Shown here piece after piece: positions 1,338 through 57,213 of a stretch of DNA of 57,213 bases. Position 1 is the stretch's first letter, and each line of letters begins with the position of its first letter. The DNA lies in NCBI GenBank assembly GCA_028867785.1, contig JAGWFS010000014.1, positions 1 to 57,213 on the forward strand, given 5' to 3'. The DNA comes from Nitrososphaerota archaeon (GTDB lineage Archaea; Thermoproteota; Nitrososphaeria; Nitrososphaerales; Nitrosopumilaceae). The position numbers were made by a program, and so were the translations under genes. Below the pieces are notes generated by a model that worked only from the letters and a program-made list of their open reading frames with translations, was not told where the DNA came from and searched no databases.

Positions 1338-1607
1338 ATGACAGAAAATCATACATTTGAAATATTCTCCGCAAACTGTCCGCTGTGCAGAAATATTGAG
1401 ATTAGAACGCATGAAGGATGCAACCAGACAACCTATGATGTGAACAACATGACTGCAGAAATCAGAGAAAAGATGGAAAAGTATGGGATAAAGGCTGTTC
1501 CTACCACAGTTATAGACGGCAAGTACAAGATAGTAGGAACACCTGATTTTCCTCTAGCATGCGGTGAAGATCTGTTCAAAAAGCTTCAAAAAGAATATTC
1601 TCTATGA
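1338..1607 (+). CDS. Thioredoxin/glutaredoxin-fold protein (CPLC)
   Basis: Small thioredoxin-fold protein of about 89 residues (ATG at 1338; an in-frame TTG at 1323 is possible). It has the redox motif CPLC near the N-terminus, a second Cys in HEGC, and the cis-proline region AVPTTVIDGKYKIVG that marks thioredoxin-like folds. Length and motif resemble the small glutaredoxin-like proteins of archaea. It is divergent from HxlR regulator 1 and lies upstream of a Cys-bearing membrane protein, so it likely reduces thiols or metal-bound cysteines in the same module. The substrate is unknown. Confidence 0.75.
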   Translation: MTENHTFEIFSANCPLCRNIEIRTHEGCNQTTYDVNNMTAEIREKMEKYGIKAVPTTVIDGKYKIVGTPDFPLACGEDLFKKLQKEYSL

Positions 1608-1644
1608 CTACAGGAATATGAGATAGAGGATCTAGGATGCCATC

Positions 1645-2073
1645 TTGAGAAACTTTCGAAGTACGTGTGCCTGTGCCTCTGGTGGAATAGGAATATGTCT
1701 TTGTACAATTTTCATGAGCTTTGGTATAGTTAGTTCTGCTGTAGTAGGAGCAGCAAAAAATGCTAATGATATATCCAATATGGGAAATATGGCTGGCATG
1801 ACTACGGTATCACAGAATATCATCGTGACATTCTTCTCTGGCTTCTGGGGAGAAGTAATTTTGCTGCTTTCATTTGGTACAATGTTTGCTGGAATATGGT
1901 TTAGTGGTAACAGAAAGATTCTACCAGTTTCAGTTGTTGGTGTTATAACACTATATGTTAGCATGTATGCATATTTTTCAATTAGTCTAGAAATTATTGG
2001 CGGTATCGTGTTGGCTTTTGCATACGCATCAGCTTACAGTAGAAGAGTTGCAAGGACACTAAAACTAGCATAA
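1645..2073 (+). CDS. Small Cys-bearing integral membrane protein
   Basis: Hypothetical membrane protein of 142 residues beginning with TTG; the frame is closed just upstream by TAG at 1633, so no earlier start exists. The N-terminus has Cys in TCACASGGIGICLC at the beginning of a hydrophobic segment; three further hydrophobic segments follow (FFSGFWGEVILLLSFGTMF, ILPVSVVGVITLYVSMYAY, IIGGIVLAFAYASAY). The loop has a short Met/Asn patch (NMGNMAGM). Paired Cys in the first helix recall small metal-transport membrane proteins (MerT/MerC type), but I see no decisive family match. It follows the CPLC protein by 37 bases and may be cotranscribed. Confidence 0.55.
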   Translation: MRNFRSTCACASGGIGICLCTIFMSFGIVSSAVVGAAKNANDISNMGNMAGMTTVSQNIIVTFFSGFWGEVILLLSFGTMFAGIWFSGNRKILPVSVVGVITLYVSMYAYFSISLEIIGGIVLAFAYASAYSRRVARTLKLA

Positions 2074-8458: not shown

Positions 8459-9247
8459 CTAGGAGCTTGTCTGGTCTGACGCGTCCTGGATTCCAAGCCA
8501 CGCGTATCCCTTTTGCTCAAGCTCGTCTGCGAGCTCTTTTGGACCCTCTTTTATCATCTTTCCCTGCGCCATGACGTGCACATAGTCAAGCTTGTCAAGG
8601 AACTTGAGAATCCTTGCATAGTGGGTGATTACAATTACAGTTGCATCCTTTCTTGAGACCTGGCTTATCGCCTTTGCAACTGCCTGGACTGCATCGATGT
8701 CAAGTCCCGAGTCGGGCTCGTCAAGTATAGATACCTTTGGCTGCAGCACTGCCATCTGCAGAACCTCCGACCTCTTCTTTTCGCCGCCGGAGAATCCCTC
8801 ATTGAGATATCTTGAGAGAAAGTCCTGCCTTAGACCTACCTGATCCAGGTTTTTTTTCAGATAATTTTGAAACTCTCTTACTGTAAGGAAGACTTCGCGG
8901 TTCTGGTCACCAAGCGACTTGCTTAGCGCATTGTATGCAGTTCTTAGAAAATGCGAGTATCCTACGCCTGATACCTCTGTTGGATACTGGAATGCAAGAA
9001 ATAGCCCCTTCTTTGACCTCTCATCTGCAGACATGTCAAGTATGCTCTGTCCGTCAAGCAGAATGTCGCCGCTTGTTACCTCGTATTTTGGATGGCCCAG
9101 AATTGTGTATGCCAGTGTGCTCTTCCCGGATCCGTTCGGACCCATGATTGCATGGACCTCGCCTGTGCCTGTCTTGAGGTTTACTCCCCTGAGTATCTCC
9201 TTTCCTTCCCTCTGCGCATGAAGGTCTTTGATTTCAAGTATTGCCAT
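8459..9247 (-). CDS. sufC: Fe-S cluster assembly ATPase SufC
   Basis: Cytosolic ABC ATPase of 262 residues that powers the SufBCD scaffold for Fe-S cluster assembly. Walker A GPNGSGKS at residues 36-43, signature FSGGEKKRSE near 150, Walker B SILDEPDSGLD near 175, all typical of SufC. The start at 9247 (MAILEIKDLHA) matches the family; the longer frame adds an unsupported extension. sufB and sufD are not adjacent here. Confidence 0.93.
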   Translation of the reverse strand: MAILEIKDLHAQREGKEILRGVNLKTGTGEVHAIMGPNGSGKSTLAYTILGHPKYEVTSGDILLDGQSILDMSADERSKKGLFLAFQYPTEVSGVGYSHFLRTAYNALSKSLGDQNREVFLTVREFQNYLKKNLDQVGLRQDFLSRYLNEGFSGGEKKRSEVLQMAVLQPKVSILDEPDSGLDIDAVQAVAKAISQVSRKDATVIVITHYARILKFLDKLDYVHVMAQGKMIKEGPKELADELEQKGYAWLGIQDASDQTSS

Positions 9248-9381
9248 GCGTACTTTCCACCGCCTTTTCGATATATAATCCAACAAAAAATTAGATCAAG
9301 CTAACTGACATTTCACGGTTCTGGAATGTGCCAAAAGCAGCAGTCTGCTTGGCACGAAAAACAAACAAAAAGGAAAAGGGG

Positions 9382-10341
9382 TTAGTTTTTGGCTAACGCT
9401 GGTTTTAGGATGACCTTGATCTTGTAGGCTGTCAGAATTTCCTTGCACCTGTTTCGTATGGTAACCTCTGTGATTCCTGCCACGCTTGAGACGTCCCTCT
9501 GCAAGATGCTCTGCCCAAGAAGCGTCGATGCTATGTAAAGGTAGGCAGCAGCAAGTCCGTTTGGTGCCTTTCCGTCGGCCAGGTTGTGGTCGTCTGTCTT
9601 TTCTGCAATCTCCGCGGCAAGCCTTTCCACTCTGACTTCTAGCTTTGCCAGATTTGCAATCTTTGATATGTATTTCTCAAGGGTTACTACTGGTGCTGTC
9701 TTTGACCCAAGCTCCATCACGAGCATTCTGTAATATTTTGCAGTCAATTTCACGTTCATCTTCTCATCTTTCGTACTTCCGGTTGCAGAGCAAATCTCGT
9801 CAAGCGATCTTACCACGTCGCACTGCTTGCATGCCATGTATATTGTTGCGGCAGACATGCAGGCAACTGATTTGCCTTTTGCTTCCGCCTGACCTTCAAA
9901 GTTTCTGTATATCATTGAGGCGCTCTCGATTACGTTTCTTGGCAGTGCTAGCGATTGGCAAGTCTCTCCTATCTTTGACAGGATGTTTGCAAGTCGGCGC
10001 TCCCTTGGGGACGAGACCCTGATTCTTGTCTGCCACTTTCTCAGATTGTACATCTGAAGCGCCATGTCGCTTGAAATTGTTTTTCCGCTAAAGTCTCTTG
10101 TTCCTATTGCTATCTCTGTTCTGATTCCAAGGTCATGCTGTGAGTAGGTCGTCTGACCTGTTGCTCTTGCAGTTTTCATTTTTTCTTCCGGATTTGTTGC
10201 TCTTGATTCTGGGCCATAGTCTGACATCTGCTCCATTGCTACCAGTCCGCAGCCAGAACAAATTTTTTCTCCACTGTGAATGTCGTCAATTAACACTGAA
10301 CGACATTCTGGACAGTTGGTTTGTAGTTCTGTTACGTTCAT
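9382..10341 (-). CDS. tfb: Transcription initiation factor TFB
   Basis: Archaeal TFIIB homolog of 319 residues that bridges TBP-bound promoter DNA and RNA polymerase. N-terminal zinc ribbon CPEC...CSGCG (about residues 10-37), a B-reader region, then two cyclin-like repeats (the second around ADGKAPNGLAAAYLYIA) and a HTH near the C-terminus (ITEVTIRNRCKEI). It starts in an ATGA overlap with gar1, a pairing conserved in archaea. Thaumarchaea usually carry several TFBs; this one sits in the conserved gar1-tfb context. Confidence 0.95.
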   Translation of the reverse strand: MNVTELQTNCPECRSVLIDDIHSGEKICSGCGLVAMEQMSDYGPESRATNPEEKMKTARATGQTTYSQHDLGIRTEIAIGTRDFSGKTISSDMALQMYNLRKWQTRIRVSSPRERRLANILSKIGETCQSLALPRNVIESASMIYRNFEGQAEAKGKSVACMSAATIYMACKQCDVVRSLDEICSATGSTKDEKMNVKLTAKYYRMLVMELGSKTAPVVTLEKYISKIANLAKLEVRVERLAAEIAEKTDDHNLADGKAPNGLAAAYLYIASTLLGQSILQRDVSSVAGITEVTIRNRCKEILTAYKIKVILKPALAKN

Positions 10342-10681: not shown

Positions 10682-10981
10682 TTACTTGGTCTGTTTGGCT
10701 CGCCGCGACGTAATCTTGTCCGCAATCGCGGAAATCATCTTGGCCTTTGGCTGTCCTTTTGAAAGGATGATGTAGCCGGACCGTACATATGGCCTCCTTG
10801 GAAACCTTGCCTGGTCGTTGGTCTCCGTTGGAGCATAGCCTGCCGCCTTGGCAGCATCAACTAGTTCTTTGAGCGAAGGATCAAAAACACTTTTTTCGCG
10901 GGAAACGCGCCTCCCCATTTTTTTTGGAAGCGTCTTGTTGAAATAATCAAGCCAGACTACGACATGTTCGTAATCTTTCAT
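10682..10981 (-). CDS. srp19: Signal recognition particle protein SRP19
   Basis: SRP19 of 99 residues. It binds the tips of helices 6 and 8 of 7S RNA so SRP54 can bind. Recognisable features are VVVWLDYFNKTLPKKMGRR near the N-terminus and PRRPYVRSGYIIL. It lies seven bases after S8e on the same strand. Its functional partner SRP54 is also in this window (16199-17524). Confidence 0.92.
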   Translation of the reverse strand: MKDYEHVVVWLDYFNKTLPKKMGRRVSREKSVFDPSLKELVDAAKAAGYAPTETNDQARFPRRPYVRSGYIILSKGQPKAKMISAIADKITSRRAKQTK

Positions 10982-10988
10982 TTTGTAA

Positions 10989-11369
10989 TCACTTTATCAA
11001 AATTGCATTTACTGCGCCGTCTTGGCCGGGTCTTGAAACTACCCTGCACTGGCCGTCCTCTGTTTCCAAAATTGCGCCCTTTGAAATCACACCGCGTCTT
11101 TCATAATCACTGCTTGCATGGTTTTTCACAACCTTGATGATCTTGACTCTTTTTACCTTACCGTCTGGGATGGACAGGTTTACAAAATCCGTAGTCTTGA
11201 GCGAGGTCTTGCTGTTTTTACCACGAACTTTTCTTGTGACAGTAACATGCGGGCCTGATATTGCCTCTACTGAGTATCTATCGATTTCATACTTTCTTCT
11301 TGTTCTAAGGGGATATCTTCTGCCTCCTGTGATCTTGCTTGTGGCAAGATTCTCTACAGACTTCTTCAT
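10989..11369 (-). CDS. rps8e: Ribosomal protein S8e
   Basis: Small-subunit ribosomal protein S8e, 126 residues, the short archaeal form. It shows the family signature KITGGRRYPLRTRRKYE and the conserved SDYERRGVISKGA stretch. Basic throughout. Upstream of and probably cotranscribed with srp19. Confidence 0.95.
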   Translation of the reverse strand: MKKSVENLATSKITGGRRYPLRTRRKYEIDRYSVEAISGPHVTVTRKVRGKNSKTSLKTTDFVNLSIPDGKVKRVKIIKVVKNHASSDYERRGVISKGAILETEDGQCRVVSRPGQDGAVNAILIK

Positions 11370-50893: not shown

Positions 50894-50968
50894 GGACCCG
50901 TAGCACAGCTTGGATAGTGCGGCCGCTTGCGGAGCGGCAGGTCGTGGGTTCGAGTCCCCCCGGGCCCG
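50894..50968 (+). tRNA. tRNA-Arg(GCG), attachment site of right element
   Basis: Cloverleaf: acceptor GGACCCG/CGGGCCC, D-stem GCAC/GTGC, anticodon stem GCCGC/GCGGC with loop TTGCGGA (anticodon GCG), T-loop TTCGAGT. Two mismatches: A3-C70 (50896/50965) and T50-C64 (50945/50959). Both involve the 3' strand from 50956 on. An integrase gene begins 45 bases downstream on the same strand, so the 3' end is probably the attachment site. Confidence 0.9.
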
Positions 50969-51013
50969 CTTCAATATTGAGATTTATTAGGATTCCATCC
51001 TATAACATCCCCA

Positions 51014-52306
51014 TTGGCAATCAAGCTTACTAAGGAAGAGGTACAAAAGACCACAAAGGATCCTTTGGCATTATTCCGAAGTGGCATAAAATCAAAAGTC
51101 ACCTTTGTCAAGTATGAAAGAAAACTAAAGATCTTTTTGTGTCATACGCTAGAAGAGCATTTGACTGGTAATCCAATTCTTAGAGAAGAGCAACGAAAGA
51201 AACGATTGACTACTGGAAACAAAAATGAAATAGAGGATTTTTTGGATGCTGACTTTGAAGACAGGGTAAGAGAGTTTGTAGATAAGGCAAGAAAGGAACC
51301 TGCATGGACCGAGGATGTATTATTGGCATATTCTGCCAAACTCAAGGAAAGAACCCAGTTACCCGAAGAGGATGCTGATTATCTCAATCCGCAAAGCTTT
51401 AGCAATTACTTCAAAGCACAAAAGAAACTTTTCAAAATGAATGGTATACATTTTGTCTGGGATAGAATCAACTCTACTTTTCCGGAACTAGATAATAACA
51501 ATGAAACGAGAGGATATGAAAGAGATGAGATTAAGGAAATTTTGAATTTTGCAAATCCAATGGAGAAAGCAATCGTGTTGATTGCCGCTTCATCAGGAAT
51601 GAGAAGAGGTGGATTTGCTTTTACGTGGGATTGCATTGTACCAATTTACAGAAGAAATGAGGACCTGATTATGGGTAGATTTGATGACGAAGATGATTCA
51701 GACCTTGTATGCGGCATGATCACGGTATACAAAAAATCATCAGAACAATATTTTGCGTTCTTTACACCTGAAGCCTGGAAAGCCATTAGGATCTACAAAC
51801 AAAAATGGCTGGATGATATTACGCATAATCCAAAAGACAAGGATTTCTTTATGAAGAAAGCAGGACCTTTTGTAGAATCCCTTAGTACTGATGCCGTTGC
51901 AAATAGACTATCAAAAGTATTGAAACGTGCAAACATCAGGGATATTTTGACACATGGAAAAAGAAGACATACAGTCCCGGTATTGAATGGATTCAGGCGG
52001 TTCTTCAACAAGATCAACAAGGAAACTCTATCGAAAGACTCCCCACTTGCAGCCTTGATCAAAAAGGAAATGATGCTAAGCCATACCGGATTAATCAAAC
52101 TGGATAAGAATTACTTTAAGACGCATTGGAAAGAATTGGTAGAAGAATATCTTCAAGCTGTTCCCTCACTGACTATCTCCAATGAGGAACGACAAAAGAT
52201 AACGATAACTCGCCTCAGAAAAGAAAAATCAGAACTTGAAGAGAAGACCAACAGGATAGATGATCTCGAAAGAAGATTGCGAATAATGGAAAAAACGAAA
52301 ACGTGA
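51014..52306 (+). CDS. Tyrosine recombinase (integrase) of right element
   Basis: 430 residues, ATP-independent integrase. Arg in ASSGMRRGGFAFTW, box II VLNGFRRFFNKI (Asn in the His place), LSHTGLI and Tyr in KNYFKTHW. C-terminal coiled coil (LEEKTNRIDDLERRLRIMEK). Start is TTG 51014. A coiled-coil continuation (VYDELEKRIRMLEK) lies in another frame downstream to 52382, so the original protein may have been about 25 residues longer; an A6 run at 52290-52295 is the probable slip site. Confidence 0.88.
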   Translation: MAIKLTKEEVQKTTKDPLALFRSGIKSKVTFVKYERKLKIFLCHTLEEHLTGNPILREEQRKKRLTTGNKNEIEDFLDADFEDRVREFVDKARKEPAWTEDVLLAYSAKLKERTQLPEEDADYLNPQSFSNYFKAQKKLFKMNGIHFVWDRINSTFPELDNNNETRGYERDEIKEILNFANPMEKAIVLIAASSGMRRGGFAFTWDCIVPIYRRNEDLIMGRFDDEDDSDLVCGMITVYKKSSEQYFAFFTPEAWKAIRIYKQKWLDDITHNPKDKDFFMKKAGPFVESLSTDAVANRLSKVLKRANIRDILTHGKRRHTVPVLNGFRRFFNKINKETLSKDSPLAALIKKEMMLSHTGLIKLDKNYFKTHWKELVEEYLQAVPSLTISNEERQKITITRLRKEKSELEEKTNRIDDLERRLRIMEKTKT

Positions 52307-52385
52307 AGAAGATAAAAGTGTGTATGATGAATTAGAAAAGAGAATCAGGATGCTAGAAAAAACAAATCTTAAAAAAGAATGAACA

Positions 52386-53027
52386 TTATTTCGAGTCCTT
52401 TTCTAACAAATCAATTACGTCAGCATATCTAGAAGATAAATCACTATACATATGCTCTAATTTTAATTTGGTTTTATGATTGGCCTTTATCATCTTATTT
52501 ACCTTCTTGAAAACCTCATCAAAATCATATCGTGATATCAGAAGACTAAATTCTGTTTGAAAGACATCTTTGCTAAATAAATTAGAAATAAGTACGTCTA
52601 ATACTGTTTTAGCAAGCTCTTCAGAATTAAAACCTCTAAACCAATTTTGTCCGGTCTTCATACCTTTAACTAATGCAAATAGAAAATATGGTGCAGTCAT
52701 ATTTTCAACAGCTTTAAAAATTTCATTTGTAGTTTCATATTTGTTTAATGATGTAGTGTTAGAGAGTCTATCATTAAAAAACAAAGAAAATTTTTCTATT
52801 TTTCTATCATTGTTTTCAAGAAATTTTTTATTTAATACATAATGCTTCTCTCTCCCTTTTTTGATAAAATTAATTGCGCCATCTTCTGTTAATATTGCTA
52901 GATAATCAGACAAAACCGGTTTTGATATTCCTAGCTTGTTTTCAAAATCAGTAAACCGCATTTTCTCATGTTTTATCAGCAAGCTGAATATTCTATAAGT
53001 AATGGTACTAGTTGGCTTAGCTCGCAT
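52386..53027 (-). CDS. Winged-helix regulator of right element
   Basis: 213 residues. N-terminal winged helix (RFTDFENKLGISKPVLSDYL, EDGAINFIKKGREKHYVL) and a helical C-terminal domain. AT-rich compared with the core genes. Divergent from the RHH gene at 53138 over a 110-base region with palindromes; probably the switch that keeps the element silent. Confidence 0.75.
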   Translation of the reverse strand: MRAKPTSTITYRIFSLLIKHEKMRFTDFENKLGISKPVLSDYLAILTEDGAINFIKKGREKHYVLNKKFLENNDRKIEKFSLFFNDRLSNTTSLNKYETTNEIFKAVENMTAPYFLFALVKGMKTGQNWFRGFNSEELAKTVLDVLISNLFSKDVFQTEFSLLISRYDFDEVFKKVNKMIKANHKTKLKLEHMYSDLSSRYADVIDLLEKDSK

Positions 53028-53062
53028 TTTACTAATTCAAAATATAAAATCATGTTATTAAA

Positions 53063-53138
53063 GGTTAGATAAGCTAACCCATTGTAAAATTAATTTTATA
53101 ACAATGTATATCAATAGTTAGGTTTCCTTACCTAACTA
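53063..53138. promoter_or_regulatory. Palindromic operators between divergent regulators
   Basis: GGTTAG-ATAAG-CTAACC at 53063-53079 and the perfect TAGTTAGGT-TTCCTT-ACCTAACTA at 53115-53138, whose last base is the first base of the RHH start codon. Both share a GTTAG core. Likely binding sites for the winged-helix or RHH protein. Confidence 0.6.
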
Positions 53139-53320
53139 TGGTCAAGGTTCAAATGAATGTGAAAATAGAACGAGGCGACTTACAATTAGCACAGAAAATA
53201 TCCGACATGAGAGGAGAGGGTTTAGCTGATTTTGTAAGATTATCTATGAGAAGAGAGTTTGCAAGACTTGGTTTCTTGAATAAACAAGAATCCAAAGCCT
53301 TGGAGGTTCAATCAAATTGA
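53138..53320 (+). CDS. RHH/CopG-like regulator
   Basis: 60 residues. Strand MVKVQMNVKIER followed by two helices (LQLAQKISDMRGEGLADFVR, LSMRREFARLGFL), the ribbon-helix-helix pattern of plasmid CopG-type repressors. A perfect palindrome overlaps its start, suggesting autoregulation and control of the replication operon that follows. Confidence 0.7.
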   Translation: MVKVQMNVKIERGDLQLAQKISDMRGEGLADFVRLSMRREFARLGFLNKQESKALEVQSN

Positions 53321-53541
53321 ATCGTTCTTGTGCTGATAACAATCCAAAAGTTGTAACAAGAATTTACAACTGGGACGGTAAACTAGTAGAAATTAATCTT
53401 TGCAAAGATCATTTGAACGATACTGATTTTCAGGATTTTATCAAAGAGTTTCCGCTGAATCAGATTATAAAAAAAGACGCTGAAGGGAGTAGGTTCCAAA
53501 CTAGTCCTTCAGGTGATTCCATTGCCACGGAGGCAACATGA
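53317..53541 (+). CDS. Small Cys/His protein
   Basis: 74 residues, TTG start inside the end of the RHH gene. NRSCADNN and INLCKDHLND give a possible zinc site similar in outline to the protein at 55918 (RCGAEDC and PLCKLH). Function unknown. Third link of an operon of overlapping small genes. Confidence 0.55.
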   Translation: MNRSCADNNPKVVTRIYNWDGKLVEINLCKDHLNDTDFQDFIKEFPLNQIIKKDAEGSRFQTSPSGDSIATEAT

Positions 53542-53697
53542 TTGAGTAACAAGATCCTACCATTAAACTATGTCAAAGATTTCATGCTTTGTACTCATTG
53601 CATACGAATCAAGGGTAGGTCTAGAAAGTTCTACACATCTCATGCCTTGAAATGGCATATCACCAACCAGCATAAAGACGAGGCAAAAATGACATGA
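53542..53697 (+). CDS. C2H2 zinc-finger miniprotein
   Basis: 51 residues; TTG start immediately after the previous stop. MLCTHCIRIKGRSRKF...HALKWHITNQHKDE gives a C-x2-C...H-x3-4-H finger. Stop overlaps the next ATG (ATGA). Confidence 0.65.
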   Translation: MSNKILPLNYVKDFMLCTHCIRIKGRSRKFYTSHALKWHITNQHKDEAKMT

Positions 53698-53927
53698 GTA
53701 AGACGTTTGCCGTCATATGCATTGTCCTAGGTTGTAAGAAATGTGACAAGATATTGTATTCTGACTTGGAATTCCTCAAGAAGCATCTCAGGACGCACAA
53801 CCATAACGAGTTGCATAATACTGCAGTTAAACTTGGTATTATCGAATCCTCATACTTTACAGGATATGACTTTCTGTTTGACAGAATACTCGAGTTTTGC
53901 ATAATACGGGAGGACCTTGTGGCATGA
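53694..53927 (+). CDS. C2H2-type zinc-finger protein
   Basis: 77 residues. CKKCDKILYSDLEFLKKHLRT then HNHNE: a C2H2 finger, followed by a helical tail. It is the second finger protein in a row, in an ATGA overlap with the one before; its stop overlaps the ATG of the replication ATPase. Confidence 0.7.
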   Translation: MSKTFAVICIVLGCKKCDKILYSDLEFLKKHLRTHNHNELHNTAVKLGIIESSYFTGYDFLFDRILEFCIIREDLVA

Positions 53928-55918
53928 CACATTATCAATGTACTAACTGCTATAAAGAAGGCAAGACGCTTGAAGAACTTCGTGCCAACGGCTGCAATTG
54001 CAGGTCTGAAAAGCTAAAGATGATTGACGGTAATGAAGAAGCAGAAAAAATCATAGATGCTGCAAAGAAGAAACAAAAGGAAGACGACGAGAGGTCCACT
54101 TCCAAGAAAATCTACGACTTTGCAATGTCAAGGATCAAGAAGATCGTTATAGCAGAAAACGACTCCGACGGTGCATATGCGATTGTGGAAAACAACAGCC
54201 ATCTGGAGCCAATCAATCTGACATCAAAGCGATTTAGACAATGGTTACGTGACTTGTACTCAAGGAATGTTGAATCAAACGACATCCATGGCGATGATGT
54301 ATTCAAAAATGTAGCAGATGAGATAATCGCAAGAGCCCAGATGAACGGAACCGCGCGGGTAAGAATTTACATCAGGATAGCACAGCTAGAAAACCAGATC
54401 TTGTATGATCTTGGCACGCCAGATTGGAAGCTAATCAAGATAACGCCTGATAAAATAGAGACCGTAATCTTTGACACGTCATTGCCGGTCTTTCAGAGAA
54501 GACAGTCTTTGCAGGCACAAGTAATACCAAAGGAAGGCGATGGTGAGGAATTAAAAAGATTTGCAGAGTTGCTTCGCATTTCAGACGATGACAAGCTTGT
54601 TTTCATAGTACATCTGATCTGCATGTTTCTTGAGTCGTGTCCAATACCAATTATGGTATTTGATGGAAGTGCGGGAAGTCTCAAGACGACTGCAACTGCT
54701 GCAATAAAGATGGTGGTGGACCCAAGCGGCAAAAAGATAGAGGATAATGTCTCAGCTATGGCAGAAAAAGACGGCGATCTAGGAATACAGCTCAACAACA
54801 GATATCTTGTAAGTTTTGACAACGTTACATCAATAGACAATGACATTTCTGATGTACTATGCAGAGCCGTAACAGGCGGTAGTAACACAAGGCGCAGGAA
54901 ATATAGTGACGATGACGAGGTCATACACAGCTTCAAGAGAAAAATAGTTCTTAATGGAATATTTCCTAGCTTGGACTATCCAGACTTGCAGACAAGGGTC
55001 TTGAATTATGCAAGAAATCCAGTGGATGACAACAACAGGATTACGGAACAGGAATTTATTGAAAAACTTGAGCAACTACTACCAGGTCTGCTTGCAAAGA
55101 TCTTTATCACTTTGAGCAAGGCATTAAAGTCATATCCTGACCTCAAGACCAAAATCAGGCCAAAGACTAGAATGGCAGATTTTGAGATATGGGGAGAGAT
55201 AATCTCGCGTGTTCTGGGTTACGATGCAAACAGTTTTCTTGACTCGTATCATCGCAAACTGACCGAGGGCCAGATCTCACTTATTGATTCACATCCAGCA
55301 GTTGGATTGATCCAGTCCTTGATGGAAAACAGGGAACAATATGAGAATACAATCAGTCATTTGCACCAAGAAATCACAGGTATAGCTGTAAAGTCTGGAA
55401 TCGAGATCAATTCCAAATACATAAGATTTCCAAAAACTCCAAGCTACCTCAAGAAAGAACTCAAGATTGTAGAGCCTCTCATCAAAACAATAGGATTTGT
55501 TGTAGAGACATACCATTATACCAAAAACGACGGCAGGTTTACGAAGAATTCCTCAATTGTAAGGATATCCAGAAGGGCAGTACAGTCCACCCTAGATGTT
55601 TCCGAAATAGCCTCACTAGCCTCACCGATGGACATTCTAGGCACGAAAACCGGTGAGGCTATTGGTGAGGGCACAACCAACGCGCCCTCACCGGAAAAGC
55701 CTGAATTTACGCACAAATCAGATACCGGTGAGGCCAGTGAGGGCGGTGAGGGCATTCCGGAAACATCCCACGGAAGGCAGTTCCTCTGCAGGACCTGCAA
55801 CGCCGGCCCCTGGCCGGTAGATGCCATTGGACACAACAGGACGAAGATAATGGACTGGCACAAGGGACACGAGATTGAATTCATGGATCAGGAACAGCCT
55901 AAAGGAGAAAACCGGTAA
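53924..55918 (+). CDS. SF3/P4-type replication ATPase with zinc modules
   Basis: 664 residues from ATG 53924 (ATGA overlap). Zinc motif CTNCYKEG...CNC at the N-terminus. ATPase with Walker A GSAGSLKTT near 247, Walker B VSFDN near 296, and the family run DVLCRAVTGGSNTRRRKYS, IVLNGI, RMADFEIW. This matches the ATP-binding proteins of bacterial plasmids and phages that act as replicative helicases. C-terminal zinc motif CRTCNAG...HNRTKIMDWHKGH. Between them is a Gly/Glu-rich linker whose DNA contains repeated GGTGAGG. Likely the replication protein of the element. Confidence 0.8.
   Translation: MTHYQCTNCYKEGKTLEELRANGCNCRSEKLKMIDGNEEAEKIIDAAKKKQKEDDERSTSKKIYDFAMSRIKKIVIAENDSDGAYAIVENNSHLEPINLTSKRFRQWLRDLYSRNVESNDIHGDDVFKNVADEIIARAQMNGTARVRIYIRIAQLENQILYDLGTPDWKLIKITPDKIETVIFDTSLPVFQRRQSLQAQVIPKEGDGEELKRFAELLRISDDDKLVFIVHLICMFLESCPIPIMVFDGSAGSLKTTATAAIKMVVDPSGKKIEDNVSAMAEKDGDLGIQLNNRYLVSFDNVTSIDNDISDVLCRAVTGGSNTRRRKYSDDDEVIHSFKRKIVLNGIFPSLDYPDLQTRVLNYARNPVDDNNRITEQEFIEKLEQLLPGLLAKIFITLSKALKSYPDLKTKIRPKTRMADFEIWGEIISRVLGYDANSFLDSYHRKLTEGQISLIDSHPAVGLIQSLMENREQYENTISHLHQEITGIAVKSGIEINSKYIRFPKTPSYLKKELKIVEPLIKTIGFVVETYHYTKNDGRFTKNSSIVRISRRAVQSTLDVSEIASLASPMDILGTKTGEAIGEGTTNAPSPEKPEFTHKSDTGEASEGGEGIPETSHGRQFLCRTCNAGPWPVDAIGHNRTKIMDWHKGHEIEFMDQEQPKGENR
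55611..55751. repeat. GGTGAGG iteron-like cluster
   Basis: Six exact copies of GGTGAGG or its complement (55620, 55652, 55664, 55686, 55727, 55745) plus two with one change (55611, 55737) in 141 bases. An 11-base unit ACCGGTGAGGC occurs at 55649 and 55724. Lies in the coding sequence of the replication ATPase. Possible replication origin with binding sites for the element's own protein. Confidence 0.6.
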
Positions 55919-56133
55919 TGAAAAAGACAAGATGTGGTGCAGAAGACTGCAGAGAGACCGCGGCCTTCTTTTATGTAACCCGGATCCAAATCATAGGCAA
56001 ATCGGCTGCAGCAGGCCAGAAAGTGATTATGCAGGTTCCTTTATGCAAGCTTCATGCCATGCTATTTGATGTAGCACAGGAATTAATTGAATCTGATTTT
56101 AGTGTTATTCAGATGAGGGAGATACCAGTATAG
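55918..56133 (+). CDS. Small Cys protein after replication gene
   Basis: 71 residues; ATG overlaps the ATPase stop (TAATG). RCGAEDCRETAAFFYV and VPLCKLHAMLF form a likely zinc site. Helical end. Operon with the ATPase and the next recombinase (two-base gap). Confidence 0.6.
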   Translation: MKKTRCGAEDCRETAAFFYVTRIQIIGKSAAAGQKVIMQVPLCKLHAMLFDVAQELIESDFSVIQMREIPV

Positions 56134-56135
56134 GA

Positions 56136-57080
56136 ATGACCAAGACAGATTCTGAAAAACTAGACGAGATACTTGTCAGAGTGGCAAGGATAGAGAAGGC
56201 CCTCAACATAGTACCAGACAGGGAATCAGAAGTATCAGATACAAGCCAGAGCATCCAGACGTACGAGTTATTCGCAAAAGAAGATCTAGGCCTTGAGGAA
56301 AACACCATACAGAACCAAAAGTCAGTCATACAATCCTTCCTGCATAATTCTGGAGGCATGATCAACGAACAATCAGTCAAGGCATATCTTGATACAAATC
56401 CCTCTCCTGCATGGAAGACAAACCAGCTAAAGGCGCTGAGGCGCTACATACGCGACTTTCTCAAGCTTGGAAACTGGATAGAGGGGTTCGAGTTTACAAG
56501 GGTCCGTCCGAGGATACACAAGGAGTATCCAAGCAATGTGGAGCTTGCAGAGTTTTTCTATGTCCTGCCTGCCGACTCGCAGGTCATATTTCTGGTACTG
56601 CTAAGCTCCGGCCTGAGGCCAGGCGAGGTTCTCGGTCTGAGGATGAAAGACGTGAATTTTGATGACGGCATAAACATGGTGGATGCATCAGGTATCCATC
56701 AAGGAAAGACCAAGTATTCTTGGATGAGTTTTATCACTGGCGAGGCTGTAAAAGTCCTACTGGAATACCTGTTCGGTAGGGGGATTCTCTCAAGCCCAGA
56801 ATCTACGATATTCTCACTTCCCATGCGTACCCTTCAGGAACACTTTAGGGATGCGTCTGAAAATACAGGGATTGATGTTACTCCCAAGCTTCTCAGGAAG
56901 GTATTTGCAGATAGGTGCGAGAGGGCCGGAATCAGTAAAAAGTACATAGACGCCTTCTGTGGCAGAACTCCAAGAGGGGTGCTTGAGAGCCACTATACTG
57001 ACTATTCTCCCTCTAGGATGAGAGAGGAATACAACAAGGTAGAACCGCTCCTTGCCCTTGGAATAGAACAGGATCCGTAA
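56136..57080 (+). CDS. Second tyrosine recombinase (XerC/D-like)
   Basis: 314 residues. N-terminal SAM-like domain (ELFAKEDLGLEENTIQNQKS), Arg in LSSGLRPGEVLGLRMKDV, box II TPKLLRKVFADRC (Lys in the His place) and Tyr in ESHYTDYSPSRM. Smaller than the tRNA-adjacent integrase; may resolve dimers or excise the element. An N-terminal acidic coiled segment (KLDEILVRVARIEKALN) is extra. Confidence 0.82.
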   Translation: MTKTDSEKLDEILVRVARIEKALNIVPDRESEVSDTSQSIQTYELFAKEDLGLEENTIQNQKSVIQSFLHNSGGMINEQSVKAYLDTNPSPAWKTNQLKALRRYIRDFLKLGNWIEGFEFTRVRPRIHKEYPSNVELAEFFYVLPADSQVIFLVLLSSGLRPGEVLGLRMKDVNFDDGINMVDASGIHQGKTKYSWMSFITGEAVKVLLEYLFGRGILSSPESTIFSLPMRTLQEHFRDASENTGIDVTPKLLRKVFADRCERAGISKKYIDAFCGRTPRGVLESHYTDYSPSRMREEYNKVEPLLALGIEQDP

Positions 57081-57115
57081 TCGAAGATCAAGAACCATCT
57101 CATTATCAGTGGTCA

Positions 57116-57161
57116 TATTGCGCCATCCTAAACCAGAAACGCGCAATAGATTCGCGCAATA
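57116..57161. repeat. GCGCAATA repeats at the window edge
   Basis: TATTGCGC at 57116-57123 faces two direct copies of GCGCAATA at 57141-57148 and 57154-57161. Just behind the second recombinase gene; could be its core or arm sites, or iterons. The window ends soon after. Confidence 0.45.
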
Positions 57162-57213
57162 TTATGCAAAAAAGGGTTACTAAAATTCAGTCATAGTTCA
57201 TGCCTAGAATCAT

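Follow-up and report, generated by a model that had tools for sequence, protein, structure and literature searches.

A cluster of short repeats in both orientations is located within the 3' part of a helicase gene, which belongs to a mobile element integrated in the genome of an ammonia-oxidising archaeon (Nitrosopumilaceae). The cluster keeps its position and layout at the DNA level while its word changes in a concerted manner, and it is associated with one family of helicases. It is probably the iteron-type replication origin of the element, placed inside the gene of the element's own SF3 initiator helicase. Because relatives keep the place of the cluster while its sequence and the encoded protein change, it is very probably a site where replication starts. 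The window analysed here is a single stretch of 57,213 nucleotides, and its features are collected in Table 1.

The word GGTGAGG is found in six exact copies in the cluster, at 55620(-), 55652(+), 55664(+), 55686(-), 55727(+) and 55745(+), and only two exact copies occur elsewhere in the 57-kb window. Two further copies with one mismatch, at 55611(-) and 55736(+), retain the core GTGAGG/CCTCAC, giving eight 7-mers in both orientations between 55611 and 55751. The first-pass annotation, made from the letters alone, had reported these eight near-identical 7-mers, six of them exact, together with an 11-mer repeated at a distance of 75 bases. Exact listing confirms both, the 11-mer being ACCGGTGAGGC at positions 55649 and 55724. 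The spacing from copy to copy is 9-33-12-21-42-9-9. Since all of these spacings are multiples of 3, each orientation has a single codon phase, GGT GAG for the forward copies and CC TCA CC for the reverse copies. The third position of the left set, which is present in the relatives L004, L060 and L084, is degenerate in the window (ATGGACATT). The gaps between the sets have GC contents of 0.48 and 0.38, compared with 0.41 for the locus.

The score of the cluster was reached by 0 of 200 dinucleotide shuffles, and the 300-bp segment at the cluster outscores all segments outside its neighbourhood within the 4.8-kb locus. When synonymous codons were drawn from the rest of the gene, the maximum was 11 inverted 7-mer pairs, while 38 are observed (0 of 2000 resamples). 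Permutation of the codons within the linker likewise reached the observed value in 0 of 2000 trials. The earlier statements that the cluster is far beyond chance, shown here at the local scale, and more regular than codon use would give, therefore both hold.

Table 1. Positions of the element's genes, the domains of the helicase and the parts of the putative origin in the window.
Feature	Position	Strand	Remark
tRNA-Arg(GCG)	50894..50969	+	probable target of integration; immediately precedes integrase 1
Putative tyrosine recombinase 1 (integrase 1)	51014..52306	+	related to integrase 2
RHH-like small protein	53138..53320	+	weak Pfam match
SF3/D5-type helicase, putative initiator	53924..55918	+	ATG start codon, shared with the L004 relative
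Winged-helix-like domain, residues about 470-553	55331..55582	+	from the model; aligned in cluster-bearing relatives; proposed repeat reader
Disordered linker, residues 554-616	55583..55771	+	pLDDT about 31; its coding sequence is the repeat cluster
Whole putative origin	55595..55767	.	inverted repeat (81%) between the outer arms, 55595-55625 and 55737-55767
Left set	55611..55626	-	two reverse copies, 9-bp spacing, CCTCAC TAG CCTCACC
Second conserved box GGCACGAAAA	55640..55649	+	between left set and middle pair; invariant AGGCAC.AAAA
Middle forward copy 1, GGTGAGG	55652..55658	+	
Middle forward copy 2, GGTGAGG	55664..55670	+	12 bp after copy 1
Single reverse copy, CCTCACC	55686..55692	-	
Degenerate second box copy (ACGCACAAAT)	55709..55718	+	L060 has TAGGCACGAAAA at the same place
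Right triplet	55727..55751	+	forward copies, 9-bp spacing, GGTGAGG / AGTGAGG / GGTGAGG
C-terminal Zn-binding-like module (Cys/His)	55772..55891	+	
Tyrosine recombinase 2 (integrase 2)	56136..57080	+	downstream of helicase

The helicase reading frame has no match in Pfam, NCBIfam or PHROG. A structure model was built on 24 relatives (mean pLDDT 78.6). The best solved structures found with Foldseek are ASFV PrimPol (3e-9), SaPI5 (7ola, 3e-8), NrS-1 and MPXV E5, and the top PDB fold matches are all primase-helicases of the SF3/D5 kind. Judged by the fold of the model, the gene product is an SF3/D5-type helicase, and a hexameric ATP-dependent helicase activity is inferred. The modelled domains follow in the order ATPase core, winged-helix-like domain, disordered linker and small Cys/His module, and the stretch of low confidence, 55583-55771, coincides with the repeat cluster. 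The cluster had been assigned earlier to a linker between the ATPase core and the zinc module. It does encode the linker before that module, but the winged-helix-like domain intervenes after the core. In every pair compared, identity is lower in the winged helix than in the core, with no clean sorting by word. The same genome contains two further helicases of this kind, L002/L004 (71%) and L003/L005 (49%, N-terminally extended). L003/L005 is PrimPol-like, by inspection only.

The part of the window from 50894 to 57213 contains two different tyrosine recombinase genes, one beside the tRNA-Arg gene and the other after the helicase, and the contig ends 133 bp past the second of them. In a search of Rfam, the tRNA was the sole known RNA element found. 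A second att copy was sought with the exact 20-mer of the tRNA-Arg 3' end, which was not found again in the fragmented assembly. The excised circular forms suggested as a check on the origin were not detected either. Between the helicase and integrase 2 of the L004 relative there is a reading frame of 115 amino acid residues (1577-1924, reverse strand) that looks DUF5615/PIN-like, from its appearance only. Its counterpart in the window is a Cys-containing reading frame of 71 residues.

It is useful to compare the window locus (L001) with L004, the co-resident 71% paralogue. The spacing of the copies in L004 is 9-33-12-21-42-9-9, identical to that in the window. GGTGAGG is absent from the L004 linker, and GGTGGAG is found instead in all eight comparable copies, in both orientations and at the same positions. 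The linker of L004 therefore reads GGGSGG/PPPS where the window protein has GEAIGE/ASPM, that is, GG/PP in place of GE/SP. The first-pass annotation had asked whether homologues keep spacing and orientation, and had named as its refutation a Gly/Glu repeat that survives without the DNA repeats. Spacing and orientation are kept here while words and amino acids change, which is the opposite of the refuting case.

Among other close relatives, L060 has the word GGTGAGG, and L061, L083 and L084 have CAGTGAG. Two features are the same in all sequences of a six-way alignment, namely the box AGGCAC.AAAA and, in the forward copies that are shared, the GTG. The 9-mer form of the box, GGCACGAAA (with no more than one mismatch), occurs 2.65 times per kb inside clusters and 0.14 times per kb outside them, a density about 19-fold higher. 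Synonymous nulls gave 0 of 2000 for L001, L004 and L060 each. One element (L014/L059/L080) has an early stop codon in its helicase gene, and half of the GTGAGG cluster is located beyond it. Wholly non-coding clusters, with the words GACAGCT, TTGACAAC, TTGACAG and GACGGTG, are found 3' of the stop codon in L074, L075, L076, L077, L078 and L071, where the sets are again spaced by 8-9 bp and inverted. The clear cases have inverted sets, and an AT-rich centre is clear in L074, L075, L076, L072 and L089. In several non-coding versions the DNA between the sets is AT-rich, with a GC content of, for example, 0.23 compared with 0.36 for the locus. The cluster is thus maintained at the DNA level, with concerted change of the word. 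The layout in homologues and the non-coding clusters after earlier stops support the original suggestion that this is a replication origin of a thaumarchaeal element, although binding and origin activity remain inferred.

The association of the cluster with the 3' end of the helicase gene was assessed over many loci. Among 35 helicase loci with 3' sequence, the segment near the 3' end scores above every far segment in 17, while 2.0 would be expected. With the score fixed, the same result was obtained in 11 of 25 new loci held out for this purpose (1.9 expected, P about 8e-7). It was also obtained in 7 of 14 replicons, 13 named plasmids and one phage, against 1.3 expected; the near zone was slightly wider in this last comparison than in the others. 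The score received its 9-bp term only once clade A had been seen; a score free of spacing ranked the 3' segment first in 12 of 34 loci of the first set. The P values overstate independence because the loci are related. About half of the helicase loci, including L005 of the same genome, have no clear cluster by the score used.

In a tree of the helicase core, the words group in clades of the GTGAGG, TTGACAG, GACGRT and CAGCTA types. Three elements have the cluster displaced by 1-2 kb downstream, still with the word of the sister element. In one locus (L079) a transposase-like reading frame is found at 9063-9674, between the helicase and the displaced cluster. The match of word and clade is consistent with a reader inherited together with the helicase gene; it would also follow from common descent alone.

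Distant homologues extend beyond the Thaumarchaeota. Three GC-rich IMG/VR contigs (L153-L155) have coding clusters with TGGACGCTG-type and related words, and the synonymous null is 0 of 1000 for each. The circular methanogen plasmid pH6Ac has a coding cluster within its 3.4-kb reading frame. In this Methanothrix plasmid (L221, 4296-4650), CGCCTCC/GGAGGCG and TGGAGTACA repeats are found inside the frame, which is unannotated and is probably the rep gene. The clusters in plasmids of Streptomyces, Actinacidiphila and Chlorohelix are non-coding, located just after the gene and in many cases lacking the 9-bp tandem. Of all clusters on the 375-kb Chlorohelix plasmid, the highest-ranking is located 3' of the homologous helicase. 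A search of viral contigs with the single protein gave no close relatives. A change of GC skew at the cluster, which the first-pass annotation had proposed to look for, receives no support from two plasmids with homologous helicases, since the extremum of cumulative skew is not at the helicase-linked cluster in either the 375-kb Chlorohelix plasmid or the 12-kb pH6Ac.

The inverted sets could also be explained by a stem-loop origin of the pRN1 type, where a cruciform or hairpin is conserved and not a word read by a protein. The single-strand DNA fold of 55590-55772 has a z value of -6.2, the outer arms of the cluster pair at 81%, and pRN1 provides a precedent, with an origin that conserves a stem-loop but little of its sequence (PMC4234260). 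However, the spacer bases between the inverted triplets match no better in the hairpin register (32 of 69, 0.46) than out of it (30 of 48, 0.62), so that the words alone appear to be kept. Although this sample is small, the compensatory change expected of a conserved stem is not seen, and a stem would require neither the extra copies in the same orientation at 12-bp spacing nor the single reverse copies. A hairpin as the conserved object is not supported and seems unlikely. A low-complexity repeat of the protein, with a Gly/Glu or Ser/Pro linker written in biased codons and the DNA pattern as a by-product, would account for the disordered linker and for the fixed codon phase of all copies. The synonymous resampling argues against this, as do the amino acids that change with the DNA word under an unchanged layout and the occurrence of the same layout in non-coding DNA of relatives. 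Codon bias or a protein repeat is consequently rejected as the cause, with practically no doubt.

Two further explanations assign the repeats to other proteins of the element. The heptads could be a partition or operator site, used in segregation or regulation and bound by a DNA-binding protein such as an RHH protein of the omega, ParR or CopG type. The element does encode an RHH-like protein, and omega of pSM19035 is an RHH protein that binds arrays of short heptads in both orientations. However, the search gave RHH homologues in 3 loci only, while the cluster is far more widespread and follows the 3' end of the helicase gene. Unrelated RHH families could have been missed, but a cognate RHH gene does not generally accompany the cluster, and this explanation is very unlikely; the RHH protein, put forward earlier as a possible binder, is likewise an improbable one. 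Alternatively, the repeats could be arm-type sites of the tyrosine recombinases. The arm sites of lambda Int are short tandem repeats, the triplets at about 10 bp resemble the lambda P' arm sites, and in the window, as in several clade A relatives, integrase 2 directly follows the helicase. Against this, the cluster in L074, L075, L076, L077 and L080 is at the 3' end of the helicase and kilobases from the integrase gene, and pH6Ac has a cluster but no integrase in its incomplete annotation. The position of the cluster does not support arm sites, and there is little reason to retain them.

The origin within the helicase gene thus remains the preferred explanation, and a mechanism can be proposed for it. 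Binding by the helicase, origin activity, the opening site and plasmid-like replication are all inferred, in the absence of binding, replication, excision or att data. The helicase would bind the short repeats through its C-terminal winged-helix domain. The inverted sets of three copies, spaced by about 9 bp, would place subunits to either side of the region that is to open, and the hexameric ATPase would melt the DNA between the sets. Host enzymes might then prime and replicate the excised circle. Because the repeats encode an unstructured linker, its amino acids would be free to follow the DNA word, and this freedom would allow the word to change from element to element. Such change would keep co-resident elements independent.

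Several known systems share parts of this arrangement. The Rep of SaPI and Cch2 of SCCmec recognise, through their C-terminal domains, iterons directly 3' of their genes (PMC7581432, PMC6092414). The SaPI/PICI origin and the window cluster have in common short iterons at the 3' end of a rep helicase gene and a helicase with a C-terminal DNA-binding domain, here the winged-helix-like domain with inferred binding; the SaPI5 primase-helicase is also among the best fold matches. However, the SaPI/PICI and SCCmec sites are downstream of the gene, while the window cluster is inside it, in an archaeal host and with triplets at 9 bp. In addition, the two sets of SaPI/PICI flank AT-rich DNA, and the interval in the window is not clearly AT-rich. 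As this centre is unclear and binding data are lacking, the cluster is not classed as a PICI origin. Among the few genes in this part of the window, none stood out as a phage interference or packaging gene of the kind carried by phage-inducible satellites, and the element is not classed as a PICI either.

An origin within the coding sequence of its own initiator is known from gene O of lambda (PMC4488673, PMC7466680) and from the rep genes of pSK41/pT181, where the encoded stretch of protein is dispensable for replication (PMC5703833). Lambda O, however, is an unrelated initiator that recruits a helicase and is not itself one, while the candidate in the window is a helicase; the iterons of lambda, unlike the window cluster, form a single block of four 19-bp repeats. 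The Sulfolobus plasmid pRN1 (orf56/orf904 and a stem-loop) is archaeal and has an SF3 helicase with a C-terminal winged helix and a cis-acting origin just 3' of the rep gene (PMC4234260). Its origin sequence is not conserved between plasmids, which is also the case here. The pRN1 origin is a stem-loop reported without iterons, while each element here keeps its word from copy to copy and the spacer bases show no stem covariation. The initiator helicase alpha of phage P4 binds origin repeats through a winged helix (PMC4234260) but, unlike the window helicase, has a TOPRIM-type primase. Classical iteron plasmids (Rep_3 and similar) have a non-helicase Rep and direct iterons of about 17-22 bp, while the window has an SF3 helicase candidate and 7-mers at 9 bp in both orientations. 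By analogy, the best reading of these variant features is a SaPI/PICI-like working with a lambda-like placement inside the initiator gene.

The first-pass annotation called such a site hardly known. For the Thaumarchaeota this is correct, but bacteria offer close parallels in function (SaPI/PICI, lambda). Replication proteins, and no origins, are named in the main survey of mobile elements in Thaumarchaeota (PMC6563490), and the literature searched, mostly without subscription papers, contained no earlier description of origins like these in the elements concerned. The PICI origin plan has been described as common to no other bacterial replicon (PMC6092414), and a plan like it would now extend to archaea. 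Replicons are wanted as genetic tools for the abundant ammonia oxidisers (PMC6563490); a defined stretch of about 170 bp is available to clone and test, with dozens of comparable sites. The linker, GE/SP or GG/PP according to the origin word, is a clean case of a DNA-level function overwriting protein sequence. We suggest, with slightly less than even confidence, that these elements represent a new class of SF3-helicase replicons, probably one that crosses domains. Their initiator would read a fast-changing word of 7-9 bp in inverted triplets just past the region coding for the winged helix. The rep frame would run through the origin in several lineages (Nitrosopumilaceae, Nitrososphaeraceae-like relatives, the methanogen plasmid and GC-rich phage-like contigs), so that the origin word dictates part of the protein, and the word would be the incompatibility determinant of co-resident elements.

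Some minor sites should also be mentioned. In the third co-resident helicase element, L005, the stop codon is followed by an eroded cluster at best (CCTCACC, GGTGGTGAG; 10807-11200 in helicase orientation), and the element may have lost its origin. The pattern GTGAGGNNNGTGAGG gave many isolated single matches in 250 genomes and is therefore not diagnostic alone; the loci with three occurrences are three helicase loci. A short intergenic stretch of genome G391 (L106, 1433-1510) contains CCTCACTATCCTCACC and an inverted GGTGAGG, with no helicase in the 3-kb stretch; it may be what is left of a cluster, or the word may have a separate user there. Helicase homologues from other families of the phylum, L144 (5176-5640) and L149 (2976-3400), have less pronounced repeats (ACGCCC, ATGACG) at the 3' end of the gene. 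The second-best cluster with both orientations in the Chlorohelix plasmid (GTGGTA, 4+5 copies; L226 around 2.5 kb, NZ_CP128401.1 202501-202800) closely follows the 3' end of a replication gene annotated as CyRepA1, and the minimum of cumulative GC skew, at 197.9 kb, is about 5 kb away.
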